64,000 nucleotides of DNA, taken from the NCBI RefSeq assembly GCF_000179595.2, contig NZ_JH556653.1, positions 732,532-796,531 on the forward strand. Reading direction: 5' to 3'. The translations under genes were made by a program, and so were the position numbers. The notes beneath the pieces are model-generated. The model saw only the letters and a list, made by a program, of their open reading frames with translations. It did no database searches and was not told where the DNA came from. Below, in pieces: positions 2,927-42,854 of this stretch; within the stretch, counting starts at the first letter, position 1; each line of letters starts with the position of its first letter. This DNA is from Acetivibrio cellulolyticus CD2. GTDB taxonomy: Bacteria > Bacillota > Clostridia > Acetivibrionales > Acetivibrionaceae.

Positions 2927-4612
2927 CTAGCTTATAATTCTAGTGGCATTGTCTTTAACCTCATTAACTATATTAACAAATTCCTTTCGCTTATCCTCAT
3001 CGAACAATTTGATAAAGCTTTGGGGCTTGTCAAAAGGCGGTCTGGTAAGCTCAGCTATGCTCTCAACATAACCATTTTGCTCTATATAGTCAATCACTTT
3101 GTTTACAAATGCTATCTGATTTGCATTAAGCTTCTGATCATTTATAAACGAAGAAAAAACTTCCATAGCTGCATTCCTCTCAAGTTTGGCAACCCTTCTT
3201 ACAAGCAATCCAAAGGGTGTATCATGAAAATTCTTTTCATAATCCTCTTTAGTTCCAAGTTCCCCGGTAAATATTTTTTCCAGCATCTTATAATCGCCTT
3301 CACTTAGAGGAATATTGTTTCTCAGTTTGTGAATAGCTATATTATCCTTGTTTTCCTCTATGTATTTGTTGACTTTCAGCTTGTAATTCTCAAAGGTATA
3401 GTCAGATTGGAAGCTTTTCATTACTGTGCGTTCCAGATCTACATCTGCAAGGTTTGTATAAATATAATTGCGCCCGTCTAAGACTGCAAATTTCATAAGC
3501 TCCCTAAGCTCTGTGCGGATTCTTTCAAAATTTAAAATATCGCATTTATCCCAAAACTCATTTTCCCTCACTTCTTTAAGTAATGGTATTTTTCCCTTAA
3601 CCTGAGGAAGTGTAGATTTCTTATCCAAAAGTATCGATACTTTTGAAACAACAGTGTTTTTTAACCGTGTAATGCTTTTATTATCTAATTGGGCAAGCAT
3701 CATGCCATACATCAGATTATCAAATTCAACAGCCTTATCATCATTGTCATCCATAAATACAAGATCTGCAATGTTTTCAATAAGGTCACTCTTATCCTTT
3801 TCAGTAAGGCATAGAAAAGCGTCTTTCATCCTGTATTTATCAACAAATTTACGCTTCAATTGCACATCAACCCTCTCAGGCACCAGTGCTAATATCTGTC
3901 CAACGACTTCATCTATTAATGAATTTCTTAATCTCTGGTATTGTTCTTCACTAAACGCTGAGTCCTGCATGTGAAAAATCAGCCTTACTCTCTTTGCGAA
4001 AATACTTGCCTGTGTTGAAGTATTTGCCGTTGGTTCAATACCATTTTTGTTTTCTCTGAAATACTCGAAATTTCTCAGATAGTCAAAGATATAAAAGTTC
4101 TCTTTATCCTTGCCTTTTCCAAACAAATCCGGCCTAATCCTTGTACCTCTGCCTATCATCTGCCAGAACTTGATTTTTGAACGTACGCGCTTAAAGAACA
4201 CAAGGTTTACAATCTCCCTGACATCGATTCCCGTATCGAGCATGTCTACAGATACTGCAATATGCGGCTCTTTCAACGGATTTTTAAACTGCTTGATTAA
4301 ATCCTGGGCATAATCATCATCACACACAACACGCTTGCAGAATTCGCCATTATACTCAGGATAAAGAATATTAAACCTGTCAACAATATACTGCGCATGA
4401 GTTTTGTTTTGAGCAAATATAATTGTTTTTCCCAACCTATTACCGCTTGCATCCTTCAAACCATTTGTCATAAGATCGTTGATAACGTTATCAACGGTGT
4501 TTTGGTTGAAAATAAATCGATTGATTTCCGGGGCCGGTATCTCGTCCGGCATTTCTCCATCTTCATCGGTAAAATCCTCTTCGTACCTTTCCTTATCCGC
4601 AGTTTTGAATCT
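2927..4612 (-). pseudogene. hsdR: Type I restriction enzyme R subunit (HsdR), C-terminal part only
   Basis: This matches the second helicase lobe and C-terminal region of HsdR of the DEAD/DEAH type. It shows the EDFTDEDGE...PE linker, GKTIIFAQN (motif IV region), IAVSVDMLDTGIDV (motif V), QMIGRGTRIRPDLFG (motif VI) and FYIFDY, then the helical EcoEI_R_C-like C terminus. A translatable ATG lies at 4552, but the same frame continues homologously back to a stop near 4613. The N-terminal nuclease domain, Walker A and DEAD box of lobe 1 are absent, so neither ATP hydrolysis nor cleavage is expected. No hsdM or hsdS is present nearby. About 540 residues remain of the ~800-1000 normal for the family. 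Confidence 0.82.
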
Positions 4613-8586: not shown

Positions 8587-8615
8587 ATTATATTCTTCAA
8601 ATATTTTTACGTCAA
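8587..8615 (-). promoter_or_regulatory. SigA-type promoter of the DUF4143 ATPase gene
   Basis: On the minus strand, TTGACG (8610-8615) and TATAAT (8587-8592) are separated by exactly 17 nt, close to the consensus for the housekeeping sigma factor. The -35 box lies inside a long palindrome (8599-8658). Confidence 0.7.
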
Positions 8616-8658
8616 GAAAAATCAGAAAATTCTGATTTTTCTTGACATAAAAATATTT
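8599..8658. repeat. 29-bp near-perfect inverted repeat, 2-nt spacer
   Basis: The arms 8599-8627 and 8630-8658 match with a single mismatch, giving a 60-bp palindrome. Each arm holds a TTGAC(G/A) box, so it overlaps the -35 region of the ATPase promoter. It could be an operator or a hairpin; there is no T-run to make it a clear terminator. Confidence 0.8.
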
Positions 8659-8916
8659 CTCTATAATTTCAACCAAACCAAATAAAGTTGTGGAACTGTA
8701 AAGTATAACTATCTAAAAAAAATAGATATAAACCATAACGTCTTATTTCCCATTTAATTACATTCGCCCATTTCCTCATTTGTTAGGTAACAAGCAGGAC
8801 CTGATGCTGGAAATTCCAGCACCCAATTTTTATAAATAAAGCAGGGGTTTTACCTAATTTATAGAAATACTATTGCAGCTATAATTGTATATTGCTTATA
8901 ATAAAGGAGACCCAAT
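8659..8916. other. Intergenic region between the divergent ATPase and PP2C genes
   Basis: It contains a short perfect hairpin (TGCTGG at 8805-8810 with CCAGCA at 8816-8821) followed by a T-rich stretch, and TATAAT-like boxes at 8880-8885 and 8897-8902. The first of these is a plausible -10 for the PP2C operon; the second is too close to the ribosome binding site. No gene is visible. Confidence 0.4.
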
Positions 8917-9783
8917 ATGAGATTATGTAATTGTAAAGAAGGCGAAAGCAGCCCTGATGTTGACGGATACTGTGAGAACTGTGGACTTCTGTGCAAACCT
9001 AAACTTAATAAAGTGCTTAAGGATAATTCCAGAAATCATTTTGAAATTTCAGCCACTCCAAATCTAGCTTTAGTAAGTAGTATAGGTTTAAATCATTGTG
9101 AAAATCAGGATTACGGTAATGTCCTTATTAAAGATGAAAATATCGTTATGGTAGTGTCTGACGGTGTTTCAGCTACAGAAGATGCATCTTACGCTTCAAC
9201 TACAGCAGTTAATACCGTCTGTGGTCTATTATTGGAATATACTCCTGATACTGACCCTAAGGAAGTTATGAGAAATGCCATAGAGACTGCTAATATCGAA
9301 ATTCAAAAAAAGCATAGTACTGAAGGCTTTTCTATAAGTGCTGAATGTACTGTTGTTGCTGCATTAGTTGTGAATAATACCGTTACTATAGGCTGGGTTG
9401 GAGACAGTAGAGCATATATGATATGTGACAAAGATATTAAACTTACAATTGATGATTCTTGGCTCGAAGAAACAGTAAGCGCTGGCAAAATGAGCTATAA
9501 GGAAGCTTTAGAAAATAAATTTGTTCACTGCATTACTCAATCATTAGGGACGAGTAACCAGGATGTTGATATTCATATAATTCAAACAGAGATTGAAAAG
9601 GGCCAGCTATTGCTTCTTTGCTCTGATGGTCTGTGGAATTGTTTTGAAAATGATAATAGTTTTATAGACCATGTTAATGAATACAACTTGGAAGATTTGT
9701 TAATTCTCTGCAATAGCTTTGTTGATAAAGCAAAACTGCTTGGCAGTAATGATGATATAACTGTGGCTATTTATAAATACTAA
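8917..9783 (+). CDS. PP2C-type Ser/Thr protein phosphatase with N-terminal zinc ribbon
   Basis: A 288-residue cytoplasmic protein. A Cys-rich N-terminal ribbon (CxC at 4-6, CxxC in GYCENCG at ~26-29) precedes a PPM/PP2C domain with all the main metal-binding motifs: NQDYG (~66), VVSDGVS (~81), GWVGDSRAY (~153), LLLCSDGLW (~231) and GSNDDITV (~277). It is expected to remove phosphates from Ser/Thr residues, most simply those added by the kinase encoded at 12764. It is the first gene of a same-strand run of five with short gaps. The ribosome binding site aaaggag lies 7 nt before the ATG. Confidence 0.92.
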   Translation: MRLCNCKEGESSPDVDGYCENCGLLCKPKLNKVLKDNSRNHFEISATPNLALVSSIGLNHCENQDYGNVLIKDENIVMVVSDGVSATEDASYASTTAVNTVCGLLLEYTPDTDPKEVMRNAIETANIEIQKKHSTEGFSISAECTVVAALVVNNTVTIGWVGDSRAYMICDKDIKLTIDDSWLEETVSAGKMSYKEALENKFVHCITQSLGTSNQDVDIHIIQTEIEKGQLLLLCSDGLWNCFENDNSFIDHVNEYNLEDLLILCNSFVDKAKLLGSNDDITVAIYKY

Positions 9784-9840
9784 TACCAGTTTTATCCCTT
9801 AGTAAATTGTTATATTACCTAATAGAATGGAGAAATAAAA

Positions 9841-11130
9841 ATGGATTTTAAAATGTCAAATTATTATAACCCTTACCTCCCTGTTATGTCTAGAAAAGTT
9901 GATGCCATAATCAGCATTGAAGCAAAAGAAAAAGAAGAAGCACTTGGTTTATCCGATAAACAACAAATTAAAGAAGCCATTATTTTTATTATAGATACCT
10001 CAGGGTCAATGGCAGGCGGTAAAATTGAAAATGCCATTAAAACTCTCCATACATGCATAGACTTGCTTGATGATTCCTGCCATTTCTGTATTCTCACATT
10101 TTCTGAAAGTACTACTACTATATTTCCTATGGAGAAATCAAGTATTGAGGCAAAAGAAAAAGCTCATATATTGGTTGCGGACATAAAAGTATACGGAGGA
10201 ACAAAATTGTCTGCTCCTTTAAATACAGCCTCATTGGTTTTTGCGGGGTATGATGACTATTTAAAAATTGCTTATTTCGTTACTGACGGTAATAACTCAC
10301 AGTCAGATATTAACAACCTTAACCTTGCTCTTAAAAGAAATAAGGGTAAATTCCACCTCAGCTGTTGGGGCCTCGGCACAGACTGGAATCCAAAAGAACT
10401 TAAAAGGATAGCAGATAATTTTGCCGGAACAGCAGAAGCTATAACAGCACCTGACGAAATGGCCTCAAAATTCCAGAAATCCCTTAGTGAACTTTTTTCA
10501 AAGTCAATTTTAAAAGCAACATTAAAACTTCAAGTCCCAAAAACCATTAGAATTAACAATATTAAGCAGATGAGCCCTGAAATACTTGATATTACTGAAT
10601 ATTTAAAAACGGTTGATGAAAAAAACTATGAAATATCTTTAGGGCCTTGGGGGCAAGAAATCAGAGACTATCATATTTCTTTTGAAGTTGAACCGCAAGA
10701 AGAAGGTGAAGAAATGCTGGTATGCAGGCCTAAAATTTCTTATATAACGGATAATGAAGAGAAAACATTTGATGGACAAAGAGTTGTTATTACATGGACC
10801 TCTCGAGTGGATTTATCTTCAAAAGAAAATGAAGAAGTAGAACATTTTAAAGGACAAGAAGAACTTTCTATAACAATTCGAAAAGGCTTGGATGCAAAAA
10901 ATATGGGAGATACAGAACAAGCAACGCTCTTGCTTGGCAAAGCATACAAACTCGCAAATGAATCAGGTAATGATGAAGCGACAATGAGGCTTAAGAAAGT
11001 AATTGAAGTGCTCGATGAATCGGAAGGCACAGTACGGCTTCGTTCGAGTGGTAAATTAGAAAACAAAGCGGCGGACTTGGAACTTGACCTTGGCGGTACC
11101 AGAACTGTCAGAAGGCGTATTGCCGAATAA
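9841..11130 (+). CDS. VWA-domain protein (TerY-like context)
   Basis: A 429-residue protein without a signal peptide or membrane segment. A von Willebrand factor A domain spans ~45-235: the metal-ion site is DTSGS at 52-56, with Thr in GGTKLS (~120) and Asp in VTDGNN completing the MIDAS. The C-terminal half is a beta-rich region (~240-330) followed by a helical tail (~340-410) and a basic end. VWA proteins next to PP2C and Ser/Thr kinase genes form the published 'TerY-P triad', where the VWA protein is thought to act as a scaffold; assignment to that class here is inference from order and domains. It starts 57 nt after the phosphatase gene. Confidence 0.88.
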   Translation: MDFKMSNYYNPYLPVMSRKVDAIISIEAKEKEEALGLSDKQQIKEAIIFIIDTSGSMAGGKIENAIKTLHTCIDLLDDSCHFCILTFSESTTTIFPMEKSSIEAKEKAHILVADIKVYGGTKLSAPLNTASLVFAGYDDYLKIAYFVTDGNNSQSDINNLNLALKRNKGKFHLSCWGLGTDWNPKELKRIADNFAGTAEAITAPDEMASKFQKSLSELFSKSILKATLKLQVPKTIRINNIKQMSPEILDITEYLKTVDEKNYEISLGPWGQEIRDYHISFEVEPQEEGEEMLVCRPKISYITDNEEKTFDGQRVVITWTSRVDLSSKENEEVEHFKGQEELSITIRKGLDAKNMGDTEQATLLLGKAYKLANESGNDEATMRLKKVIEVLDESEGTVRLRSSGKLENKAADLELDLGGTRTVRRRIAE

Positions 11131-11163
11131 ATTAAAGTGTAATATTAAGGAGAATAGTTTCTT

Positions 11164-11685
11164 ATGGCAGAAGAAATCATTGTTTGCCCGGAATGTGGAA
11201 TAGATAAAATTGAAAAATCTGAATTTTGTGAGGTTTGCAAATATAACTTTGTAATGGGTGAAGCTTACAAACCGGCAATTGGAACTCGTACAATATTAAG
11301 AAATACATTTAATAAGCATGAGGTTTATTTTAATATAGTTATCAACTATGATAAAGCACTTTGCGAAAAGGATTTGCTTAAAAAATTCCCTTTAAACGCA
11401 TCTCCAATAGTTGTTCCCTTAGATTTACAAGAGACTTTAATAGGCAGGAGTTCTACTGAACAAGGGATTTTTCCCCATATAAATATTAATGATCCTGGTG
11501 TTTCACATCGGCATCTAAAATTAATATATAATAAAGAAGGAAACCTCGAAGTTTTGGATTTAAATACTTTAAACGGAACAAAACTAAATAGCAATGACCT
11601 TGAACCAGGCGTAAATATTTCACTACAAGACCAAGATGAACTGATAATCGGCATTTGGACAAGAATAAAAATTCAAAAGGTCTAG
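11164..11685 (+). CDS. FHA-domain protein with N-terminal zinc ribbon
   Basis: A 173-residue protein. A four-Cys ribbon (CPEC at 8-11, CEVC at ~22-25) is followed by a linker and a complete forkhead-associated domain at ~85-170: IGR, GVSHRHL (SxxH) and LNGT, the residues that hold phosphothreonine. FHA proteins read out Thr phosphorylation. Next to a PknG-like kinase it occupies the place of GarA, the FHA substrate of mycobacterial PknG, although its N-terminal part is a zinc ribbon rather than the GarA phospho-tail. It is separated from the VWA gene by 33 nt. Confidence 0.9.
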   Translation: MAEEIIVCPECGIDKIEKSEFCEVCKYNFVMGEAYKPAIGTRTILRNTFNKHEVYFNIVINYDKALCEKDLLKKFPLNASPIVVPLDLQETLIGRSSTEQGIFPHININDPGVSHRHLKLIYNKEGNLEVLDLNTLNGTKLNSNDLEPGVNISLQDQDELIIGIWTRIKIQKV

Positions 11686-11775
11686 TGCTTTTTGACATTA
11701 ATTCTGTTACAGCGCACTCGAATTAATGGTTAATAGTATCTTTTTGAAACTGCTTGATAAGGAGTATTTCTTAGT

Positions 11776-12756
11776 ATGAAAAAGATTTTAGAAAACTGGC
11801 TTGATAAAATTTCTGTCACAGGCAAAAATATAATTGAATTAAAAAATTCAGATTCTTATAAAATGATTTCAGAAATGCTGAATTCTTGTGATACTCCATT
11901 TATAGGTATTACCAGGAATAAAGCCTTAAGTATTATTGAAGATATAGATATCCTTTTTATTAATTATTCCAATCTGACTGATTTAGTACATAGTATTGAA
12001 GCATTAAGTGAAAACCAGCACATTTTTAACAGTAACATGGAAAAAATAAAAGCTCTAATTGAGGGTGATTCTTTGACAATTACATCTAAAGCTGTTCCTG
12101 TCGAAGAACGCGGATTATTCGAAAATACATGTAATGAAATAAAAATAACACCGGAAAAAATGTTTGAGCACCTGGAATTTTCATTCAAAAATATTTGCAA
12201 CAATATAAAAATAATTGTCGATGCTGTAAGAAAAGCAGAAATTTTAAGCAATAAAACTAATGAACGCTACAAATCTCTTGAAAATAGAGCCAATATATTA
12301 AATTACCCAATATCGAAATTTGATTTCGATGGATTAATCCTCGAATTGAAAACGAACCCTTTAGATATACAAGCTGTAACAGATAAAATCAACCTGCTGT
12401 TTAGCAAATTTGAACTTGAATTATCTGATGCTTCGGATGAATATAATTATCTTGACTTGTTATTTAACAGTGTAGACAGTAAAATAAAAGAACTAAACAA
12501 TTTAACCTCAAAATCAAGACAAATAACTGGTGAAAATCTTGGGCAATTAGCCCTTAGCAAAACCTTGATAAAACCCTTAGACAATTCCCGTATGGAATTT
12601 ATAAATGCCTGGGTTTATGATTTAAAAAAATATTTTAAGCTTGGCAAATACAAACCTGTAAAAATCGGGCTTACAAAGTTAAATGAAGAATGTATATTGC
12701 TTTTGGGCAGTGAAAAGCGGATTTTTGATGATAATATAAGGGTGCTAAAAGGATGA
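11776..12756 (+). CDS. Unrecognised helical protein of the kinase cassette
   Basis: A 326-residue, mostly alpha-helical, soluble protein rich in Lys, Asn, Ile and Leu. It has no signal peptide, no membrane helix and no motif I recognise. Several amphipathic stretches (about 25-60, 85-110, 130-175, 255-320) could form coiled coils or a helical bundle. It starts from an ATG with AAGGAG 12 nt upstream and ends 7 nt before the kinase start, so it belongs to the same transcript. Its fixed place between the FHA and kinase genes suggests an adaptor or substrate of the phosphorylation system; this is inference. Confidence 0.75.
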   Translation: MKKILENWLDKISVTGKNIIELKNSDSYKMISEMLNSCDTPFIGITRNKALSIIEDIDILFINYSNLTDLVHSIEALSENQHIFNSNMEKIKALIEGDSLTITSKAVPVEERGLFENTCNEIKITPEKMFEHLEFSFKNICNNIKIIVDAVRKAEILSNKTNERYKSLENRANILNYPISKFDFDGLILELKTNPLDIQAVTDKINLLFSKFELELSDASDEYNYLDLLFNSVDSKIKELNNLTSKSRQITGENLGQLALSKTLIKPLDNSRMEFINAWVYDLKKYFKLGKYKPVKIGLTKLNEECILLLGSEKRIFDDNIRVLKG

Positions 12757-12763
12757 TAATTAT

Positions 12764-14941
12764 ATGATTAAATGTAAATTTAAAAATTGCTACGGTACAG
12801 TAATTGACGGGTTTTGTGATGAATGTGGAAGACCACAGTCGGATGAAGACAAAGTAATTAAGTTATCGGATGACAATCAAAACAATTCGCAAGTTTTTGC
12901 TTCTTCAAAGCCTTTAGTACCGGCATATACAAGAAAAATAAATCGCTCTATAGATAAAAATAATCCTCTCGGCTTAGGCTTAGTTAACATTTCTCCGCCC
13001 GAGCCTATAAGACCGTTGAGTTTGTTGATGAAAATGCCCTACTTACAGGAAAACAAGATATTTTGTCCCTGGTGTAAACATAAGATAACTGAAGCTTCTG
13101 GAACTTGCAAGACTTGTGGCAAATTATACGATTGTATGCCTTCATTAAAAACTGGCGATATTATTTTTGACAGATACGAAATCAAAGGCCCTGTAGCACT
13201 CGGTGGAATGGACTGGATATACTTAGCCTTTGATAAAATCCTTGAAAGATGGGTTATTATTAAAGGGCTGATTAATAAGTATGATGATAGTTCCGTAGAA
13301 ATAGCCCGCAATGAGCGTATTGTTTTAGGTGCAACAAACCATCCGAATATAGTAGAAATCTATGACTTCATAAATTATAATAATGAAGGTTTTATCGTAA
13401 TGGAGTTTTGCGGTGGAAAAAGTATAGGCACAATGCTAAAAGAAAATACTACAATTCCGGTCAAAGAAGCTATCTGCTATATAATAAGAATACTTCCCGC
13501 TTTTTCATATCTGCATTCAAGAGGTTTTGTATATTGTGATTTTAAACCTGATAATTGTATGGTTGAAGAGGATGTCAAGCTGGTTGATTTGGGAGGAGTA
13601 AGAAAAGTAGATGATAAGAATGCTGCAATATACGGAACCAGAGGCTTTATGGCTCCCGAAGCAGATCAACACCCTATTGAAGTTTCTGACTTATATTCGG
13701 TTGGAAGAACTCTTGCAGTTATGATTATGAAATTTGACTATCAAAAAAAATACGAATACTCATTGCCTGAACCAAAAGAGCAACAGATACTATCAGAAAA
13801 TAAGTCTTTGTATAAGTTCTTACTAAAAGCTACTAATAATGATCCAAATCTAAGATATCAAACAGCTGATGAAATGATTTCACAATTGAAAGGTATCTTA
13901 AGAGAAATCGTTTCATTAGAAAGTTATCCAAGGTATAGTAAAAGTGATTTCTTTACATATGATAAACTTATAGACGCTGATGAAACTGAAGGGATTGAAA
14001 AATTTAATGCAAAATATATCCCCTCGGTAAAAATTGATCTAAATGACAGCTCTGCTAAATTAATTACCGACATTTACAGTAACATTCCTGAAAACGACCC
14101 TCATTTGAGGCTTAAATCAATTATGAGCAGTCAGAAAGCCGATTCAGTTTCTGAATTACATCTTGAAAAGATGACCTTTGAGTTATTATTTAGGATATGT
14201 GAACTAAATATTGAAATTGGAAATCTTGATTTGGCTGAATCGCAAATTAAAGTTTTATCACATATTGATAAATATAATTGGAAAGTCAACTGGGTTCTCG
14301 GATTATTTTATATCAAAAATAATGACTTTAAATCCGCAATAGTTGAGTTTGAAAAAGTGGATAATGAGATCCCGGGTGAACTTGCTCCAAAGCTTGTTTT
14401 GGGTTATTGCTATGAAACAGAGCGGTACTTTCATTTGGCAAAGTCCTATTACGAGCATGTAGCAAAAGTTGATCCCAATTATACGACAGCATGTTTTGGT
14501 GCAGCACGCTGCGCAATAAGAGAAGGCCTCCAAAAGCTTGCAATTGAGTTGCTTGAATTGGTACCTAACAGCCATAGCATGTCAACTCTTGCAAATATAT
14601 CGATTATAAAAGTATTAATGTTGGATAAATCTAATATTGACCTTGATTCAATAAAAACAGCTCAAAAATGTTTTGATAATATCTTGGTCGAAAATGGATT
14701 GGTACATCTGGTAAAAGCCCAGTTTTTATCCGAAGTATTAGAACTTTTTAGAAATAACAAAATAAAAGAAAATCCTGGCTTTGTAATTGCAGGATATCGA
14801 TTAACTCTTGATAATATTAGAAAATGTGCTGAATACGAATATATGAAAGCTTCGGAATATGAAACTGATAAAGAAGAAAAACGTGTCTTAATCAGTCTTG
14901 CTAAAAAGTGCAATAATCATTTTTTGGGTGGTCTTTTTTAA
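12764..14941 (+). CDS. PknG-like Ser/Thr protein kinase (zinc ribbons, kinase, TPR)
   Basis: A 725-residue cytoplasmic kinase. Domains in order: zinc ribbon 1 (Cys4...CDEC at ~21-24), a linker, zinc ribbon 2 (CPWC ... CKTC at ~101-120), a kinase domain at ~130-390, and a TPR/helical C terminus at ~430-720. Kinase landmarks are the Gly-loop region ALGGMDW, Lys167 in VIIKG, catalytic Asp259 in YCDFKPDN, metal Asp275 in VDLGG and GTRGFMAPE. The FKPDN, VDLGG, YGTRGFMAPE and SVGRTL segments and the TPR stretch (PGELAPKLVLGYCYE) closely resemble mycobacterial PknG, which also has a Cys-metal domain before and TPRs after the kinase. The Cys-metal module in PknG is redox-sensitive; a similar role here is inference. 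Confidence 0.93.
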   Translation: MIKCKFKNCYGTVIDGFCDECGRPQSDEDKVIKLSDDNQNNSQVFASSKPLVPAYTRKINRSIDKNNPLGLGLVNISPPEPIRPLSLLMKMPYLQENKIFCPWCKHKITEASGTCKTCGKLYDCMPSLKTGDIIFDRYEIKGPVALGGMDWIYLAFDKILERWVIIKGLINKYDDSSVEIARNERIVLGATNHPNIVEIYDFINYNNEGFIVMEFCGGKSIGTMLKENTTIPVKEAICYIIRILPAFSYLHSRGFVYCDFKPDNCMVEEDVKLVDLGGVRKVDDKNAAIYGTRGFMAPEADQHPIEVSDLYSVGRTLAVMIMKFDYQKKYEYSLPEPKEQQILSENKSLYKFLLKATNNDPNLRYQTADEMISQLKGILREIVSLESYPRYSKSDFFTYDKLIDADETEGIEKFNAKYIPSVKIDLNDSSAKLITDIYSNIPENDPHLRLKSIMSSQKADSVSELHLEKMTFELLFRICELNIEIGNLDLAESQIKVLSHIDKYNWKVNWVLGLFYIKNNDFKSAIVEFEKVDNEIPGELAPKLVLGYCYETERYFHLAKSYYEHVAKVDPNYTTACFGAARCAIREGLQKLAIELLELVPNSHSMSTLANISIIKVLMLDKSNIDLDSIKTAQKCFDNILVENGLVHLVKAQFLSEVLELFRNNKIKENPGFVIAGYRLTLDNIRKCAEYEYMKASEYETDKEEKRVLISLAKKCNNHFLGGLF

Positions 14942-15026: not shown

Positions 15027-16253
15027 ATGTTGAATAATAATATTATTAAATTACTATTAATTTTTGTAATGGTATTAAATTTAACTGCATGTAATAACGG
15101 AAAAAATTTAGGTAATAAGACTAAATCTAGTTCTGTTGAAATATGTGAGCAAACGGGAAAATTTCTGGTTTGTTTATCAATTGATGGATTATTGCAATGT
15201 TTGGATATTAGTAATCAAACCGTTTTGTGGAATCAAAAATTCTCGATTTATGGTAAGAATACTTCAAGTCATATTTGTGAAGATAAGTTGATTTTCGCAG
15301 TCGGGAATGAATTGATACATATAGACTTAAAAACTGGTAAAAAACTATGGAAATCGAGATTGGACGGTAGTATTAGTTGGATATTTGCGGATGATAATGA
15401 AAAATATATAGTAGTCAGTACAGAAAATGATTTGATTTGTTGTTTCGACAAAGAGAGTAATAAAAAATTGTGGTCAAAAAAGTATCGTAACGCAGCACTT
15501 TTAGAACCTGTTACATCAGGAGATTCTCTCATTTTCCAATGGCGTTTTAATGGTTCTAAGTATGTTCAGGGGGCAATTGAGCACAAGATTTACTCTGTAG
15601 ATATTACCAATGGTAATGAACTTTGGGCATATGAATCAAAGACAAGATTACTTCCTAGTCTTTTCACTTCTGAGAATAGTGTTATTTTTAGTGATGCAGA
15701 AGGTACAATTACATCTCTTAATAAAGATACAGGTAAAACTATTTGGACGTATGCTACAAACAAAGAGCAACGGGATTTATATTGTAATATGGCTCTTTTT
15801 GATAATACATTGGTTTTCTTTCACACCGAAGGTCAAGTGTACTTTTTAGACAAGAATACAGGAAGTAAAACTTACGATGAGACAACTAATAAGGCTATAA
15901 TTAAGATAAACATATATAATGACATTGCGATAATTGTATGTGATGATGGAACCATTAATTTTTATGACATTATAAATAAAAAGCCGTTAAATTCTTTAAG
16001 TACGGCCAGCAAATACTATAAATCAATAAAAATTAAGGATGATTTATTGTACGTGTTAGGAACTGATGGAAGTTTATATGCGTACGGAATTAATGATTAT
16101 AAAGAGGTTTGGAATTATAAAAGCAGAATAATTGAGTCAGAAATATTCATTTCAGGTAATCAAATAATATTTGTTTCTACAAAAACAGATCGATCTACTG
16201 AGTTTGTTATACTTGACCGGCTTACAGGAAAGGAGGTAAAAGTTATAAACTAA
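15027..16253 (+). CDS. PQQ-type beta-propeller lipoprotein
   Basis: A 408-residue protein with a lipoprotein signal (hydrophobic stretch ending LTAC, Cys at ~22). The body is made of PQQ_2-like blades marked by GKKLWKSRLDG, NKKLWSKKYRN, GNELWAYESK, GKTIWTYAT and KEVWNYKSR. Such propellers (as in BamB-like and sensor proteins) mediate binding; no enzyme motif is seen. It follows the kinase gene by 85 nt on the same strand with its own ribosome binding site, so it may be the extracytoplasmic partner of the signalling cassette or an independent gene. Confidence 0.85.
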   Translation: MLNNNIIKLLLIFVMVLNLTACNNGKNLGNKTKSSSVEICEQTGKFLVCLSIDGLLQCLDISNQTVLWNQKFSIYGKNTSSHICEDKLIFAVGNELIHIDLKTGKKLWKSRLDGSISWIFADDNEKYIVVSTENDLICCFDKESNKKLWSKKYRNAALLEPVTSGDSLIFQWRFNGSKYVQGAIEHKIYSVDITNGNELWAYESKTRLLPSLFTSENSVIFSDAEGTITSLNKDTGKTIWTYATNKEQRDLYCNMALFDNTLVFFHTEGQVYFLDKNTGSKTYDETTNKAIIKINIYNDIAIIVCDDGTINFYDIINKKPLNSLSTASKYYKSIKIKDDLLYVLGTDGSLYAYGINDYKEVWNYKSRIIESEIFISGNQIIFVSTKTDRSTEFVILDRLTGKEVKVIN

Positions 16254-16493
16254 AAAAAGTGCTTAGTCATTTTTTAAATAAACAAATGTAAGTTGGAAAT
16301 TAGATAACTATATATAACGTTGAAAAGTATTTACGTTGCAAATTTACCTCTTATTTTTATTCTAAGAGACGAAATAAATGTAAAAATTTTTTACGTACAG
16401 CTCATAGATAGTATGAAGCAATATTTATTTTAGATTTACTAACTTCAGTAATAAGGACTGGTGTTAGCATACAATTTGGGGGGAAAGTAAAAA

Positions 16494-19400
16494 ATGAGAA
16501 AGAAATACTCAGTACTAGTAATTTTAGTCTTTTTAATGCAAATCATATTTGCTGATGTCAGTTTTGCTGCGTCGGCACCAACTACTTTAAAAGTATCCGG
16601 TTGCTTAACTTACAAGTATAAAAATTCAATGTCAGGCTCAGAAAAAACAGCTCCATTAGAAAATTATACTGTGAAGTTATATGATCAGGATATTGGTCAC
16701 ACTCATTTGATGGGAACTACTAAAACCGATAGCAATGGAAATTTTATTTTCGGAGGGGTCAATGCGAATGATGGATGGCTTGCAGGGGGATTAGATCTAT
16801 ATTTTGTAGTTAAAGCCGAAGATGAGTTTTCATATGTTATGGAAGATGGACTTTTTAAAGATACTACAGAATTCAAGTCAAAACAGGTAGATAACATTAC
16901 AAAGGATTATAATTTTGGAAATGTTAATATAGGCCTAAATGGTGCATTTCATATAGTAAATACTATTCATAAAGCGGCAGATACATGGATTGATAGTAAG
17001 CCCAATTTTGGCTGCTATCCTCCGAAAATTAAAGTGATTTGGAGAAATGGTGAAGAGAATGGTGGAACACGCTGTGGAAAAGACACAATGTATGTTCAGG
17101 CAACTGCTTCGGACAGTGATCAATGGGATGCAAATGTAATCTTGCATGAATATGGACACTTTTTAATGCGTAATTTTGCAGAGTCTCCAAAAGGAACCGG
17201 GTTAACTCACGTAGGAAGCGGAATTTACAACAAGGGTCTGGCGTATTCAGAGGGGTGGGCAACATACTTCGGACAGTATGTCGATGGCTCACCTAATTAC
17301 AGTGATTCGAGTTCAAGTAGCGTACTATCAGGTGATATTGAGTTACCAAATCCTAATGTTCCAAATGAAGCCAATGAATATGCTAATTCTGCAACCTTGT
17401 GGGATATAACCGATTCGACTAATGAAGCTCATGATTCATTGACTGAAAGTTTTACATATATACAAAATTTGTTACACCAAAAAGTGTCATCTACAGGTAA
17501 ATACAATCAAGGTCTTTGTGACTTATGGAAAAATTGGTTTGCGAACGGATATGCAAAGGGAAAAGAATATGAAATATGGAAAATTTTCAATAACCATGGA
17601 ATGCAATTTGATAATGAGCCGCCTAAAGTATCATTTAAAAAACTCGTAAGTCCAAAGATTTCTGCTGATACTGAAGTCGAAGTAAATGCCTCAGATAATA
17701 TAAAGGTTGAAAAGATAGAGTTTTATGTCGATGGTGTTTTAAAATCAACTTGTAAAAACCCACCGTATAAATTTCTTATAAAGAAGAAAGATTTTTCTAA
17801 AGGAAAGCATATACTTCAAGCAAAGGCGTATGACCCTGCAGGTGCTTCTCAGACAACTACAAATAGTGGGTTTCAGATGGTAGAACCAGCGTCTGGCAAA
17901 ACTTCTGCAAAACCGATTTTGGGTGTGATAACTAATTTGGATTTTGTTACAAATACATTGGTACAGCAAATTAGACTGGCTTTTGGTGTTGCTTACCAGC
18001 CGTTTATAATAGATGATGGGGAAGATGCATTAGCTGTTACACAAAAAGGCTGGGATGATATTGGCAGTATTCTTACTGGAATGGGTAAAAGTTTTAGTCA
18101 AATAACTGACGAATCGCTGCTAACATATGATAACATTAAAAATTATGATTCTATTTTCTTAAACTGTAATTCATCTGCTTCTAGATATTCAACTGATGCA
18201 GCTTCGTCTATTAAGAAATTTGTAGAAGAAGGCGGAACAATATACGCATCAGATTATGCGTATGCTTATGTGAAAGAAGCATTTCCAGGATATTTATTAT
18301 TTCCGGATACTCCTACTATAGGAAGTGCTCAAAAGGTAAATGCAATAATTACTGATTTGGGAATGGCCAATTACATTGGAATGAATAATATAGAAATAAA
18401 TTATGATTTGGGTAGTTGGGTTGTGATTGACTCTGTAAGTTCGGAGGTTACAACTCATGTTAAGGGAAGTTATTATGATTATAGTAGTAACGACTTAAAG
18501 ACTGATAAACCTTTATTGGTTTCCTTTCCGTATGGTAAGGGCAAGGTTATCTATACTACTTTCCATAATGAAAGACAATTAGCAAGTGAAGTGACAAAAA
18601 TACTTGAATATCTTGTTCTTAAAGTTACACAAAACATTCCTGAAAGCAATGTTAATGATGTTTTGAATTCTTTTGATTATTCCATGTTCAGTACTATGTT
18701 TTCAACACTAGATCAAAATGAAGAATCTCAGATATTTAAATTTAGTTGCAAAGAAGGTCGTGACTATATCCTGACAATGGATAGTTATGGCGGATACTAT
18801 AATATTGATTTGTACAAACCTGATGGAAATTTATATGCTACAATTGAGAATCCTACTCTGTCAAATGGTATACAAATTATGAATCCTGAAGCCGGAGAAT
18901 GGGGATATAAGGTATCCGCTAAAGAAGTGTATTTTGAAGATACGCCTTTTGTAGTCGGAATCGGTGAAAAGTTAAGGGCTCCAAGTATTGCAAACCTATC
19001 AGAACAAACAAATAAAAAGTCTATTGATATAGAGGGTTCTTCTCCAGGATATGCAGGGATCGAATTGAAAGTGGAAAATGGTGAAAACTCTAGCGAGTAT
19101 AATACCAATGTCTATGATAGTAAGTTTATAATATCTGATGTATTGCTATCCGAGGGCAGAAATGAACTCACTGTAAGTGGGAGTGTATATAACACGAGTG
19201 TTAGCAATAGTGTATATGGTGATACAGCTTCAATAATACGTGAATATGTTATAAATTGTGATTTTACAAACCCTCAAATAATATTGGACAATGAATTTAC
19301 TGAAAATGTGTTTACTGACACTGTTGAGATATCAGGTTCTGTGTCTGAGGATTGTATTGTATCAATTAATGACGAAATTGCTGATATAACTTATGGCAAA

Positions 19401-20480
19401 GCAGGTACTGCCCCACATTTCAATTTGAATGTAAATCTTATTAAAGGTGAAAATGTTTATACAATAAAGGCGACAGATAAAGCAGGTAATGAATCTATAA
19501 AGACTTTAAGGATTATCAGAGACGACAAAATATCATATGAAACAAATGCTCCTAAAATTGTTAGCATGAACTTGTCAGACAATCAGGTTATATCGGATGA
19601 TTATACGGTAAAAATAATTGCAGAAGATGAAAGTAATTATACTATCATTGCTGCAATTGATGATATTGAATTATCATCTACAAACGGAAATGAGTTTTTA
19701 ATTAAGAATCAAAATGCGGGACAACATTTATTTAGCTGCACTATTATTGATAGGTGGAACAACGCAACAATTGTTGAAGTACCTTTTTATATAAATGTAC
19801 AATCATCAACTTCAGAATCAAAACAAGTGCCAACATCAACACCAATCGCTACTCCAACAACGCCAACCAATACCCCTGCTTCTGGAAATGATAAGACAGA
19901 AGAACCGGGTAGTGATTTTCCTTCTAGCGTTGTTTTTACAGATTCAATAAATCATTGGGCAAAGGATTATATTGATAGTCTTTACTCGAAAAAGATAATT
20001 AGTGGATATCCTGATGGTACAATAAAACCCAATAATGAAATAACTCGTGCTGAAATGGCAGTTATTTTGGCTGAAGCCTTAGGTCTTGATGCAGAATACG
20101 CAAAAAAAGCAGCTTATAAGGATATTGACGACATACCTGAATTTGCGATACAAGCAGTAAATGCTTTAAGTGAAAAAGGAATTTTTGTCGGATATGAAGA
20201 TGGTAGTTTTAGACCAAACAACAAAATAACAAGAGCAGAATTGATTACTTCTGTAGCAATAGCATATAAAATAGAGCCTGTAAGCACAAATAACAAAAGT
20301 TTTGTGGACTCTGATGTTATTCCATCATGGGCGGCAGGTCATGTTAATGCTGCTGTTGTGAAAGGGATTATTAAAGGGTACTCAGACGGAACTTTTAAAC
20401 CCCAAAATAATATTAAACGTGGAGAAGCTTTTGCAGTTATATCGAATTGTTTAGAATTGAGTGACGGAATAGGAAAGTAA
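16494..20480 (+). CDS. S-layer-anchored secreted protein with gluzincin-like metalloprotease motif
   Basis: A 1328-residue secreted protein. After a signal peptide (~1-25) comes a transthyretin-like beta domain (~35-120). A metallopeptidase-like region follows with HEYGH at 218-222 and the downstream EGWATY (Glu253) expected for the third zinc ligand. Next are an Ig-like domain (PPKVSF...GKHILQAKAYDPAG, ~380-460), a ThuA/GATase-like Rossmann region (~475-700), PPC-like and further Ig-like domains (~720-1100), a Ser/Thr/Pro linker, and three SLH repeats at ~1155-1325 (FTDSINHWAKDYI, YKDIDDIPEFAIQAV, FVDSDVIPSWAAGHV). The SLH repeats should attach it to wall polysaccharide. The start has a GGGGGG site 8 nt upstream. 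Confidence 0.88.
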   Translation: MRKKYSVLVILVFLMQIIFADVSFAASAPTTLKVSGCLTYKYKNSMSGSEKTAPLENYTVKLYDQDIGHTHLMGTTKTDSNGNFIFGGVNANDGWLAGGLDLYFVVKAEDEFSYVMEDGLFKDTTEFKSKQVDNITKDYNFGNVNIGLNGAFHIVNTIHKAADTWIDSKPNFGCYPPKIKVIWRNGEENGGTRCGKDTMYVQATASDSDQWDANVILHEYGHFLMRNFAESPKGTGLTHVGSGIYNKGLAYSEGWATYFGQYVDGSPNYSDSSSSSVLSGDIELPNPNVPNEANEYANSATLWDITDSTNEAHDSLTESFTYIQNLLHQKVSSTGKYNQGLCDLWKNWFANGYAKGKEYEIWKIFNNHGMQFDNEPPKVSFKKLVSPKISADTEVEVNASDNIKVEKIEFYVDGVLKSTCKNPPYKFLIKKKDFSKGKHILQAKAYDPAGASQTTTNSGFQMVEPASGKTSAKPILGVITNLDFVTNTLVQQIRLAFGVAYQPFIIDDGEDALAVTQKGWDDIGSILTGMGKSFSQITDESLLTYDNIKNYDSIFLNCNSSASRYSTDAASSIKKFVEEGGTIYASDYAYAYVKEAFPGYLLFPDTPTIGSAQKVNAIITDLGMANYIGMNNIEINYDLGSWVVIDSVSSEVTTHVKGSYYDYSSNDLKTDKPLLVSFPYGKGKVIYTTFHNERQLASEVTKILEYLVLKVTQNIPESNVNDVLNSFDYSMFSTMFSTLDQNEESQIFKFSCKEGRDYILTMDSYGGYYNIDLYKPDGNLYATIENPTLSNGIQIMNPEAGEWGYKVSAKEVYFEDTPFVVGIGEKLRAPSIANLSEQTNKKSIDIEGSSPGYAGIELKVENGENSSEYNTNVYDSKFIISDVLLSEGRNELTVSGSVYNTSVSNSVYGDTASIIREYVINCDFTNPQIILDNEFTENVFTDTVEISGSVSEDCIVSINDEIADITYGKAGTAPHFNLNVNLIKGENVYTIKATDKAGNESIKTLRIIRDDKISYETNAPKIVSMNLSDNQVISDDYTVKIIAEDESNYTIIAAIDDIELSSTNGNEFLIKNQNAGQHLFSCTIIDRWNNATIVEVPFYINVQSSTSESKQVPTSTPIATPTTPTNTPASGNDKTEEPGSDFPSSVVFTDSINHWAKDYIDSLYSKKIISGYPDGTIKPNNEITRAEMAVILAEALGLDAEYAKKAAYKDIDDIPEFAIQAVNALSEKGIFVGYEDGSFRPNNKITRAELITSVAIAYKIEPVSTNNKSFVDSDVIPSWAAGHVNAAVVKGIIKGYSDGTFKPQNNIKRGEAFAVISNCLELSDGIGK

Positions 20481-21177: not shown

Positions 21178-24100
21178 ATGAGGTACTTGCCAATAAGATC
21201 CCACTTTAAAATTATTCTTGTCATCCTTACCGTTACAGCTTTCATACTCAATAGCGTAACATGTGTAAGTGCTGCTGCCTCTACTTATAGTGAAGAGGAA
21301 ATTCTCATAAAATTTAAGGATGGAGCTAATGTTTCAGGTTTGATTTCAAAATATGACTTGAAGCTCTCTGAAAGCATTACAAAACTTCAGTCCAAGAAAG
21401 TTAAATTCAGAAGTAACAAGAATAGGGATAGTGTTATTTCCCAGTTAAAAAAAGATCCCTCAGTAGTATACGCCCAGCCAAATTATATATATAAATCCTT
21501 AGGTACCCCAGACGATCCAAATTACAGCCTTCAGTGGGGTTTGCCACGAATAAAGGCAGACAAAGCCTGGGACATATCTCTTGGTTCAGAAGATATAGTA
21601 GTTGCTGTAGCAGACACCGGAGTTGATATTAACCATCCGGATCTTGCTTCCAGCCTGGTATATGGCTATAATGCGATAAACAATACCAATAGCATAGATG
21701 ATGATAATGGTCACGGAACACATGTAGCCGGAATCGCTGCAGGAATAATAAATAATTCTAAAGGTATAGCAGGCGTTGCCGGTAAAAGTAAAATCATGCC
21801 TATAAAAGTGCTTGATTCTACCGGATCAGGCTATACGTCCAATATTGGGAAAGGGATTATGTGGGCTGCCGACCATGGTGCCAAAGTAATAAACCTAAGC
21901 CTTGGTTCATCAAGCTACGATAATTACCTCCAGGATGCAATCAATTACGCTTATGATAAAGGAGCTCTAATCGTGGCAGCTGCAGGGAACTCAAGTACAA
22001 ATGTACCTTCTTACCCAGCAGCTCTTAATAACGTCATTGCAGTATCAGCTACTGACAGAAGTAACGCCAAAGCAACCTTTTCAAATTATGGTTCCTATAT
22101 TGATCTCGCTGCCCCTGGCTTAAGCATTTACAGCACTACTTTTGACGGTGCATATGGTTACAAGTCGGGAACTTCAATGGCGTGTCCCTTTGTATCGGGT
22201 GCTGCTGCTTTGGTATGGAGCTTGAATACCAACAAAAGCCCCTCGGAAATTGAAAGTATATTGAAGAGCACCGCTTATGATATAGGTTCAACCGGAAGAG
22301 ATGATGCCTTTGGCTATGGTCTGGTAGATGTTTATGAAGCTATCCGGGTTATTGAGCCTGCGCCGCCGGAAGGAACAAACACAGCCAACCCATCTTCGAC
22401 TGCAATCCGCACTCCTTCAGGTACTCTTCAACCAGGTACCAGTCCAACACCTACACCAAGCCCAGAAAGTAATCCCGGACTTTCACCTGATATTATGCCA
22501 ACACCAGGTCCAAGCGGTATTCCGATGCCAGATCCTTTGCTTCAACCTTTAGGGAACTTAGAAAAGCCTATAAATGCTGAACCTATAAGCGGTATATATA
22601 CTATCAGCGGTTGGTTTTTAGATATTGATGGCGTAAGCACAATTGAAGTTCTAGTTGACGATAAATTTATAGGATACGCCACCTACGGCGATTCAAGGCT
22701 GGACATTGGTGCCATGTTCCCACAGTATGGAAACTCAAACTGCGGTTTTCATTATGATCTAGATACCTCCAAGCTAACAAACGGAAGTCACCTTCTTACA
22801 ATACGCGAAACATCTTCAAAAGGTAACCAGATTCCGCTCTTTCCTGTGTTATTCACAGTAGGAGATGGTGCTGCTACCCCTGTGCCGTCTTCCCTGCCTT
22901 CACCAGAACCTGGTGCAGGCGGCATAAGTTATAATCTTTCTGAAGACTGTTATGTAACAGTTACAATTTATGATAGTTTTGATGCACTTGTAAAGACCTT
23001 AGAGAACAATGTTCTTAAAAAGGCCGGCGAATATTCTGTCAATTGGAATGGTAAAAACTCAGCAGGACAAATGGTTCCCGATGGAGTCTACACCTATAAA
23101 ATTGTTGCTGTTGACCTTGCGGGTTTAGAATCAGAGCCAATTACCGGAACCATTATCGTTGAACGCTTAAATCCATCCATAACTGCAGTTATGGACAGCC
23201 CGGATCCCTTTGATCCTACGGGTGATAAACAAAATACTATAAGCTATACAGTATCCGAAAACGCTGTTGTAAATATTTCCCTTTATAAAGAAAACGGTTT
23301 ATTGGTAAGAGATCTTGGAAGTACAGATGCGCTCATTGGCAGTAATAAAGCTTTCTGGGATGGAAAGGATAACAATGGGCAGTTAGTTGAAAACGGAACC
23401 TATACCTATAAAATTAATGCCATCGATGCATATGACAAACCATCAAAAACAGTAACAGGAACTATTTCCATAGGTGAATTGGACTTCCCGGTTATCAGTA
23501 ATTTTAAAGCGGCTCCAAATCCATTTACTCCTGACGGAAGCAATAATACTACAATCACCTATAGTATTTCAAAAGCAGCTTCAGTGAGTGTGCGTATTTA
23601 TGATTTGACAAATAACCTTATTAAAACTTTAGAAGACAATGCTTCAAAGAGTGCAGGTTCACAAAGTGTAACCTGGCAGGGTAATAATTTAGCTGGTTTC
23701 ACCGTACCAGCAGGAAGCTATACAGTTGTAATAACCGCAGTGGATAAGGACGGTCTTAAAGCAGATCCACTAACCGGCAGCATAGCAGTAACAGGGCAAA
23801 ACAACAGTGGAGATACCCAGCTTATAACAGGAGTCACCGATTCCCCCGATCCATTTATAATAAATGGCAGTAATACCTCAACAATATCCTTTAGTCTTTC
23901 TGCTAATGCAAACTTAAAGCTTAATATTTATAACAGCAGTGGGTCTCTTGTAAGAAAACTTTATGATAATACCGCAAAGTCAGGTGCAAATAGTATACAA
24001 TGGGATGGAAAGGACAGTTCCGGAACCATTGTAGCTAATGGTATATACACTTATACAATCAGTGCTACAAGCTCTTATGACGGAAAAAGCCAGAGTGTAT

Positions 24101-40526: not shown

Positions 40527-41066
40527 GATGTGACCTCCTAAAATTAATGTTATGTACCTCGAAACTCTGTAAAGCAATAGTTTATAGTGTATTTATTCAT
40601 GAGTCATGTTTAAAACACTAAACAAAAGAATTTTAATAAATCACCTCCTGGATTTTTTTACATAAACTACCATACACATTTTATATTAATGTATTAAAAA
40701 TGTTTTTTCAGCAAATTTGGTTATTGTTTATAAAAATGTAATAATTTGATGAGAATTAAAATAACGCTTATATTTACGAGAAAAGAGCAAAAAAATAAAA
40801 GGGATGTTTGGAATAAATCCCTTTTTAAAGGTTGGTAGGATATTTTTCATGAAAAAACATCTATATTATTGAATCTACAAGTGTTTTTGAAAACTGAAAA
40901 TATAACTTTCACTACTATTTTTGCTAAAGGCTTATTTGAAGCAAAATAGCCACTTAGAAAAAGTGTAAGTTATCTTTCAGTCATTCTTTAGCACTTGTAT
41001 AATTGAGAACAGCTTTAACGTTAAACAAATCAAAACTTCATGTTTGTGTAAAATATTTTTCATTAA
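40527..41066. other. Intergenic region between two minus-strand secreted-protein genes
   Basis: No gene is visible. The stem 40798-40805/40817-40824 (8 bp), followed on the minus strand by a long T-rich run, is a probable terminator of the beta-propeller dockerin gene. A longer imperfect stem pairs ~40901-40912 with ~40960-40971. The 200 nt next to 40527 should hold the subtilase promoter. Confidence 0.5.
40785..40824 (-). terminator. Probable terminator of the beta-propeller dockerin gene
   Basis: A perfect 8-bp stem (40798-40805 with 40817-40824) is followed on the minus strand by tattttttttgctctttt. It is about 240 nt beyond the stop codon at 41067. Confidence 0.6.
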
Positions 41067-42656: not shown

Positions 42657-42690
42657 AACATTGCACCCCCTAAGTCATGTTTCTCTACGT

Positions 42691-42796
42691 CTATATATGC
42701 GCTATAAATAAATTTTTGTGGGGTACATTTTCAAGAATATGGAGTTATAATTGCAATTTGTACCCTCAAAAATCAAATATAGTTTCGCATATATAG
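42691..42796. promoter_or_regulatory. Concentric inverted repeats in the divergent promoter of two dockerin genes
   Basis: Outer arms 42691-42701 and 42786-42796 are a perfect 11-bp inverted repeat. Inner arms 42712-42727 and 42759-42773 match over ~15 positions with one mismatch and a one-base gap. Both share a centre at ~42743. TATAAT at 42746-42751 lies in the loop. The symmetry fits coordinated control of both genes. Confidence 0.6.
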
Positions 42797-42854
42797 AGGA
42801 AGTATTAAATGAACAATATTGTAATTTTCATATTTTTTGAGGGAGGTCCTTATA

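Follow-up and report, generated by a model that had tools for sequence, protein, structure and literature searches.

A rare clostridial copy of a PknG operon otherwise found in actinobacteria, with additional genes that look like an ArnA/ArnB switch

The window analysed here is a stretch of 64,000 nucleotides (nt) from Acetivibrio cellulolyticus CD2 (contig NZ_JH556653.1, positions 732,532 to 796,531 of the forward strand), and its subject is a block of five genes that includes a kinase of the PknG family. The block spans 8917–14941 and consists of five open reading frames (ORFs), all on the + strand, with intergenic gaps of 57, 33, 90 and 7 nt. In order, these encode a PP2C phosphatase of 288 amino acids (aa) (8917–9783), an ArnB-like VWA protein of 429 aa (9841–11130), an ArnA-like zinc ribbon-FHA protein of 173 aa (11164–11685), an all-helical protein of 326 aa that we call component X (11776–12756) and the PknG kinase of 725 aa (12764–14941). 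Pfam recognizes PP2C_2 (1.1e-13) and PP2C in the first protein, VWA, VWA_2, VWA_3 and VWA_3_C in the second and FHA (7.9e-11) in the third, and all matches for PP2C, VWA, FHA and PknG domains are above their cut-offs. By eye, a plausible ribosome-binding site precedes each of the five genes. Ahead of the first gene, on the + strand (8858–8916), lies the aaggag ribosome-binding site together with a possible promoter, TTTATA-16-TATAAT (8858–8885); promoter-like sites of this kind are no more common here than in shuffled sequence (30 found, shuffled mean 40).

The kinase is a full-length member of the PknG family, as judged by its domain order and by a match along its length. PknG_rubred (32.8 bits; cut-off 28.5), Pkinase (111.9 bits; cut-off 31.7) and PknG_TPR (110.1 bits; cut-off 27) follow one another in that order, and residues 68–713 align with M. 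tuberculosis PknG (2pzi) at E 1.1e-80. The protein is thus built from an N-terminal zinc ribbon, a rubredoxin-like domain (C101, C104, C115, C118), a kinase domain and a TPR domain. An initial annotation of this DNA had read the PknG layout from the letters alone and named profile searches for the TPR and rubredoxin domains as the check; with both domains above cut-off and the 2pzi match, that reading held. The catalytic residues K167, D259, N264 and D275 are invariant across 14 aligned sequences. Within the 6.16 Mb genome the kinase is one of eight kinase-domain matches, seven of which are above cut-off. Viral contigs searched for PknG yielded no relative. N-terminal Cys-x2-Cys ribbons are carried by the PP2C, FHA and PknG proteins, which bears out the earlier claim that three of the proteins have ribbons of their own; in the phosphatase the ribbon reads DVDGYCENCG. 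Four aspartates of the phosphatase (D82, D163, D237 and D279), which we take to be the metal ligands of the PP2C family, are invariant across 11 sequences.

The same genes are found together in actinobacteria. A search of a plasmid collection led to a record of Nonomuraea gerenzanensis in which homologues of PknG, PP2C, VWA and FHA lie side by side, with an X-like gene ahead of the four and GlnX- and GlnH-like genes behind them. A plasmid search with the query P0004 gave no match. We then used the VWA protein to survey species genomes and kept the best 80 of 168 relatives, of which 60 (loci L039–L098) were of this type and 20 (L099–L118) were other VWA proteins and were dropped. All 60 loci are actinobacterial; with Nonomuraea they form a census of 61 loci in which seven families were mapped. 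Because the survey started from VWA, PknG operons lacking a VWA gene are under-sampled. All five genes are present in 55 of the 61 loci, and GlnX and GlnH in 56. The order X-PknG-PP2C-VWA-FHA-GlnX-GlnH occurs in 33 loci and GlnX-GlnH-X-PknG-PP2C-VWA-FHA in 20, and the order in the window, PP2C-VWA-FHA-X-PknG, is a rotated version of it without GlnX-GlnH. Five of the six incomplete loci (L054, L083, L091, L097, L098) lie on contigs that end inside the cluster; the sixth, L090, lacks PP2C. An FHA match adjoins VWA in every census locus and in the window. The membrane protein is named GlnX by NCBIfam above cut-off in L039 (277.8 bits; cut-off 250) and in L023. Profiles for GLNX and GLNH had no hit among the 133 ORFs of the window, and a single GlnX query of the A. 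cellulolyticus genome, run without a positive control, returned nothing.

Profiles trained on the actinobacterial loci only, with the window left out, scored 542 bits for PknG, 337 for VWA, 182 for PP2C and 93 for FHA against the window. At the level of sequence, this confirmed that the five genes are real and that they match the actinobacterial families beyond chance. Component X gave 30 bits with its window-free profile, compared with 1.2 for the best of 1000 shuffles; a higher value of 171 bits was set aside as circular, its model having contained the window sequence, and 30 bits is the independent figure. In the profile alignment X shares motifs with the actinobacterial X, and it keeps the same gene company. 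A confident AlphaFold2 model of X (pLDDT, the predicted local distance difference test score, 88.7) is all-helical save for two short strands. A fold search of the PDB found nothing at E 0.001 or better, phmmer started from the window X retrieved the window X alone, and Pfam had no match to it above cut-off; for an actinobacterial relative, too, neither Pfam nor NCBIfam gave a family at the thresholds applied. X, a conserved helical fifth component homologous to the gene that precedes pknG in the actinobacterial clusters, is the weakest link in the comparison.

Outside actinobacteria the block is rare. In samples of 398 Bacillota genomes each, the VWA profile and the PknG profile both matched one genome, this one. 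The search of relatives covered 60 genomes, its own included, and found the full VWA protein only here; the five-gene block was found in neither of two congeners searched, one of them (G222) showing only a weak partial VWA match. A survey of the class recovered PknG_TPR matches in 13 of 291 genomes, 3 of them above cut-off, and among the matches listed only that of this genome covers most of the model. By its gene content, then, the block is a rare clostridial copy of an operon found otherwise in our searches only in actinobacteria. The initial annotation had read the block as if a PknG-GarA pair had been joined to a triad of the TerY-P type, and offered a survey of the gene neighbourhood as a way to overturn its proposal, should the genes not be kept together. 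The survey found them together in 55 of 61 loci and did not overturn it. The block is not a one-off joining of such modules, nor does it seem to have been put together in clostridia: it is common among actinobacterial VWA loci and was found in 1 of 398 Bacillota genomes. Previous work describes PknG as mostly restricted to Actinobacteria, with relatives in Ktedonobacter and Calothrix, from a sample that included Firmicutes (Lisa et al. 2021, PMC8546545), and its operon as pknG with glnH and glnX (PMC6069109). The latter paper mentions neither a phosphatase nor a vWA protein, and its STRING figure could depict such neighbours unnamed. Among the literature matches listed for PknG with these partners, subscription papers being outside the scope, there was no description of the five-gene cluster.

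Rarity of this kind could also mean that the block was acquired and has since decayed or fallen silent, serving no function in this clostridium. Its presence in 1 of 398 Bacillota genomes and the failure to find it in either congener searched are what such an origin would predict. However, the catalytic and binding residues are intact and each gene has a plausible ribosome-binding site, and the block resembles the adjacent genes in GC and in GC at third codon positions (GC3). We regard a functionless block as most improbable. The similarity in GC and GC3 to the neighbouring genes suggests that any transfer of the block was not recent.

The VWA protein combines a vWA domain bearing a metal ion-dependent adhesion site (MIDAS) with a beta-sandwich, a helical C-terminus and an unstructured tail, GGTRTVRRRIAE. 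The MIDAS residues D52, S54, S56, T121 and D149 are invariant across 11 aligned sequences. Modelled with AlphaFold2 (pLDDT 85.9), the window protein matched 4fx5, a von Willebrand factor type A protein of Catenulispora acidiphila, at E 2.5e-46 and a template modelling (TM) score of 0.90, followed by ArnB of the ArnAB complex (8s05_A; E 4e-23, TM 0.70) and 5a8j (TM 0.62). After these came inter-alpha-inhibitor, pilus adhesins, integrins and Sec23/24. In profile searches, 4fx5 scored 569 bits with the tail included and ArnB of 8s05 reached 1.4e-12; the window sequence alone matched 4fx5 at 6e-55. The closest solved structure is thus 4fx5, which is nearly full length and has a Thr-x-Arg tail. The C. 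acidiphila protein was noted previously as a structural relative of ArnB (PMC6509490, PMC12852372), and the passages of those papers on this protein make no mention of an operon or of PknG. With a vWA domain, a beta-sandwich, a C-terminal helical domain and a MIDAS all present in the predicted structure, the protein appears to be of the ArnB type.

The tail itself (residues 414–429, ELDLGGTRTVRRRIAE; 11080–11127 on the + strand) is basic and C-terminal. It contains the motif GGTRTVRRR, in which T422 and R424 are invariant across 11 aligned sequences, and this stretch carries no helix in the model. In the census of 62 VWA proteins, window included, 56 tails could be anchored, of which 54 have Thr-x-Arg and 2 have Thr-x-Lys; shuffled tails gave a mean of 25 (maximum 35) for Thr-x-Arg and a mean of 35 (maximum 45) for Thr-x-Arg/Lys. 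The six proteins without an anchor comprise five full-length ones, which also have Thr-x-Arg, and the broken ORF of L098, so that Thr-x-Arg/Lys is found in 61 of 61 full-length tails. The phosphopeptides of Sulfolobus ArnB, such as ETTRR, EQTR and EVTKK (PMC6509490), look like the tail motif in the window when the letters are compared. Two Actinomadura proteins (L042 and L096) end in repeats rich in Thr, of the kind DETVTTRRG, as though phosphosites had multiplied there.

The FHA protein retains the phosphothreonine-binding residues GR, S, H and NG in alignment. These motifs are present in 56 of 57 cluster FHAs, the exception being L047, which lacks NG; five of 62 entries (four fragments and L098) were left out of this count. 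The best PDB matches of the FHA family profile were ArnA (8s05_C, 1.1e-12), a plant FHA (1uht, 1.1e-12) and ArnA again (5a8i, 3e-12), with GarA lower at 2e-9, and the ArnA matches span both the zinc ribbon and the FHA domain. A zinc finger followed by a phosphothreonine-type FHA domain, encoded next to a VWA gene, is the arrangement of ArnA, and the protein is a good candidate for an ArnA-type partner on these grounds.

The initial annotation had instead taken the FHA protein for the GarA of a PknG-GarA pair, an assignment that we rejected. The protein scores 23 bits with the OdhI model, whose cut-off is 200, and the ETTS-type motif occurs in 0 of 57 cluster FHAs. A separate GarA/OdhI-like match was found elsewhere in each of nine cluster-bearing actinobacterial genomes tested (9 of the 61 loci), at 158–234 bits, three of them above the curated cut-off and six below it. 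In two separate GarA homologues the motif reads ETTSVFR (L121) and, as a variant, EQTSVFR (L120). In the A. cellulolyticus genome the best match to the GarA model is partial, at 36 bits, and a model of the E1 component of 2-oxoglutarate dehydrogenase (OGDH) had 0 matches there and was positive in three of three actinobacterial genomes. Since neither GarA nor OGDH E1 was found in this genome, it is very unlikely that the clostridial block acts through the classical PknG-GarA-OGDH path.

A related proposal is that the FHA protein is nevertheless an effector like GarA, in which PknG phosphorylates it so that it releases or binds a metabolic enzyme, with VWA and X serving as scaffolds. Phosphorylation of an FHA protein by PknG is known chemistry (PMC8546545, PMC9769921), the linker of the window protein bears a Thr (GTRTILRN), and the window sequence searched by itself retrieves OdhI (E 0.0026) and Rad53 and no ArnA at E 0.01. 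The missing ETTS-type motif, the separate GarA-like protein in all nine genomes tested and the failure to find OGDH E1 in this genome argue in the other direction, and we consider an effector of this kind unlikely.

Two known systems share parts with the block. The GlnX-GlnH-PknG-OdhI/GarA cascade of Corynebacterium and Mycobacterium has a PknG with kinase and TPR domains and, except in corynebacteria, a rubredoxin domain, and most of the actinobacterial five-gene clusters likewise carry glnX and glnH. In contrast to that cascade, the five-gene block adds X, PP2C, VWA and FHA, and in this genome GlnX and GlnH are not encoded beside it. The ArnA-ArnB-ArnC-PP2A system of Sulfolobus acidocaldarius, which is linked to nutrients in that organism, consists of a zinc finger-FHA protein, a vWA/beta-sandwich/helical protein with Thr-x-Arg/Lys near its C-terminus, a Hanks-type kinase and a phosphatase. 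There, the zinc finger of ArnA holds unphosphorylated ArnB, and the kinase ArnC phosphorylates the C-terminus of ArnB, to which FHA then binds (PMC12852372, PMC6509490). The block differs in being bacterial, in having PknG as its kinase and PP2C as its phosphatase and in possessing X.

Conservation of the catalytic, phosphothreonine-binding and metal-ligand residues and of the Thr-x-Arg/Lys tail leads us to propose a cytosolic phospho-switch, driven by PknG and acting on an ArnA/ArnB-like pair, in which PknG would write, the VWA tail accept, the FHA protein read and PP2C erase. We think it moderately probable that the operon works in this way, and we infer the phosphorylation, the signal and the target alike. 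In the unphosphorylated state the zinc ribbon of the FHA protein would keep a loose grip on the VWA protein. Under the control of its rubredoxin and TPR domains, and with X as scaffold or adaptor, PknG would phosphorylate the tail, the proposed acceptor being T422, the conserved Thr of Thr-x-Arg. The FHA domain would then capture the phosphothreonine, which would alter the complex and its binding through the MIDAS or the surface, until PP2C resets the tail; X and the ribbons would act as docking parts. In actinobacteria the input would be extracellular Asp/Glu, by way of GlnH-GlnX. Because that sensor is not encoded beside the clostridial block, the signal here is probably cytosolic and may come from the ribbons, through their metal or redox state, or from X.

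Several observations weigh against this switch. Two animal VWA proteins outscore ArnB with the VWA profile, and the window VWA sequence alone matches ArnB at only 3e-5, over the vWA domain. With the FHA profile the plant protein 1uht is level with ArnA, and the window sequence on its own finds OdhI instead of ArnA, as described above. The X match spans just 132 of 392 profile positions, and a direct BLASTP comparison with the Nonomuraea X gave no match. A Thr-x-Arg motif shared by the PknG N-termini was considered and dropped, as it is not enriched (23 of 61; shuffled mean 26). In Sulfolobus, the ArnB phosphosites lie mostly in the helical bundle, whereas here the motif is in a terminal tail, and pairwise Thr mutants of ArnB still had normal motility (PMC6509490); the authors of a 2026 study think that most ArnB-like proteins are not multi-phosphorylated (PMC12852372).

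The VWA tail could instead dock on the TPR domain of PknG. In such an arrangement it would be a docking peptide with no phosphosite, and the VWA protein would bind a target at its MIDAS and bring the kinase to it. TPR domains do bind extended peptides, as was proposed for the GlnX termini (PMC6069109), and a basic, C-terminal tail is suited to this. However, a basic docking peptide needs no conserved Thr, and FHA stands beside VWA in all 61 loci and the window, though no FHA match occurs in the short flanks of four additional PknG loci (L132, L136, L137 and L138). Docking without phosphorylation therefore seems to us distinctly unlikely.

The partnership of kinase, phosphatase and vWA protein also occurs elsewhere. 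TerY-P triads encode VWA, PP2C and kinase in one operon, and their mark is a TerY-type VWA or a TerY metal-binding domain. The triad of this type seen by the initial annotation was not supported: up to E 1, neither Pfam nor NCBIfam listed a TerY-type or Ter family for the proteins, and the VWA protein groups with 4fx5 and, in its fold, with ArnB. More broadly, the block might be a Ter-type or conflict-system triad that serves defence and not nutrient signalling. In the GAP1-N2 systems of actinobacteria, a kinase that bears a ribbon is encoded together with PP2C and a standalone vWA protein (PMC7159879), and the genes upstream of the operon include Fic, AAA-DUF4143 and type I restriction genes. 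Those systems differ in being centred on a GTPase, and the passage that describes them has no PknG TPR, FHA or GlnX/GlnH. No GTPase or Ter family was found among the 20 window proteins scanned with Pfam, the PADLOC matches came from broad models for kinases and PP2C, apart from a single weak Cas10 match given by the FHA protein, and GlnX-GlnH accompanies 56 of the 61 actinobacterial loci. A role in defence is highly improbable in our view. Type VII secretion subtypes with a kinase, a PPM phosphatase, vWA or FHA also exist (PMC11217815); neither an EssC-type ATPase nor a WXG100 protein was among the same 20 proteins.

Some actinobacteria encode several PknGs, with 16 matches across nine genomes. 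Four extra copies (L132, L136, L137 and L138), which belong to the L039 (Actinomadura) and L049 (Kibdelosporangium) genomes, have X and VWA genes for company and no PP2C or FHA match within their short flanks, so that there may be a smaller module of PknG-VWA-X. As for the remaining extra copies, L134 lies with GlnX and GlnH, L133 with GlnH and L135 with neither, again within short flanks. A first PknG tree, rooted at the midpoint, had 44 rows and represented 34 of the 61 VWA loci (L087 was then dropped as short). In a second PknG tree, rooted on the window, six PknGs without X and VWA nest inside the five-gene type: L023, L026 and L134, which have glnX-glnH, L133, which has glnH in view, and L024 and L135, which have neither in view. 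The first tree is similar. The approximately unbiased (AU) test rejected a single clade of the six (p 0.002), and it likewise rejected one that unites the five-gene type with the window left aside (p 0.0002). These tests concern groups already seen on the first tree and used quick trees; the tested tree left out 14 of the 44 rows (three long-branched paralogues and eleven near-duplicates), picked after the first tree had been seen. Sampling of the six is thin, and none is known to be from Mycobacterium or Corynebacterium. The window is a long branch in all three trees. In the VWA tree (25 of the 61 loci, midpoint root) it stands apart from the actinobacterial orders sampled, at the end of a very long branch, and no donor can therefore be named.

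The nesting of the six suggests that the glnX-glnH-pknG operon is a reduced form, derived by loss. A further step would be that a bacterial ArnA/ArnB-like switch, with a vWA/beta-sandwich/helical core shared with eukaryotic Sec23/24, was the original partner of PknG, that glnX-glnH-pknG arose by loss of X, PP2C, VWA and FHA, and that the clostridium keeps the five-gene core without an adjacent sensor or detectable GarA or OGDH E1. We offer this history as a tentative possibility that is rather less than probable. Against it, two of the six PknGs without VWA, L024 and L135, show no glnX-glnH in view.

On its right, the block is followed by a gene for a PQQ-type lipoprotein (15027–16253). This gene was considered as a replacement sensor and dropped: together with the SLH/Ig protein next to it (15027–20480 for the pair), it is paired in the congener G222 (L142, 9261–14927) at 54 and 64% identity, without the five genes. 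We take the conservation of this pair in the absence of the block to mark the right boundary, at 14941. On the left, a 541-aa ORF (2927–4552) with Helicase_C and EcoEI_R_C represents the C-terminal portion of a type I restriction R subunit and seems to be missing the N-terminal one. It is separated from the operon by Fic and AAA_14-DUF4143 genes, in the manner of a variable region. Between the AAA-DUF4143 gene and the operon are a near-perfect 29-nt inverted repeat (8599–8658; 97% complementary, 2-nt loop) and a second hairpin with a T-rich tail (8805–8821). Further downstream, the window encodes a 2416-aa subtilase with 15 FlgD-Ig-like repeat matches (21178–28428) and a second subtilase of 1437 aa (36264–40577). 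Two dockerin proteins are encoded on opposite strands (41067–44696), one with a rhamnogalacturonan-lyase-11 domain and the other with DUF362, which fits the guess of the initial annotation that the DNA comes from a cellulosome producer.

The much-studied PknG is usually treated as part of a three-gene operon that acts on GarA/OdhI, and the extra genes of the actinobacterial-type operon look like an ArnA/ArnB switch. This resemblance predicts a second output of PknG that can be tested. If the five-gene core is the older setting, that output is an unstudied one, with a structural template in 4fx5 and an archaeal analogue in ArnA/ArnB. If true, the clostridial copy would separate the second output from amino-acid control and would serve as a non-pathogenic model for the rubredoxin and TPR domains, and bacterial and archaeal nutrient signalling would be tied to one vWA-FHA switch.

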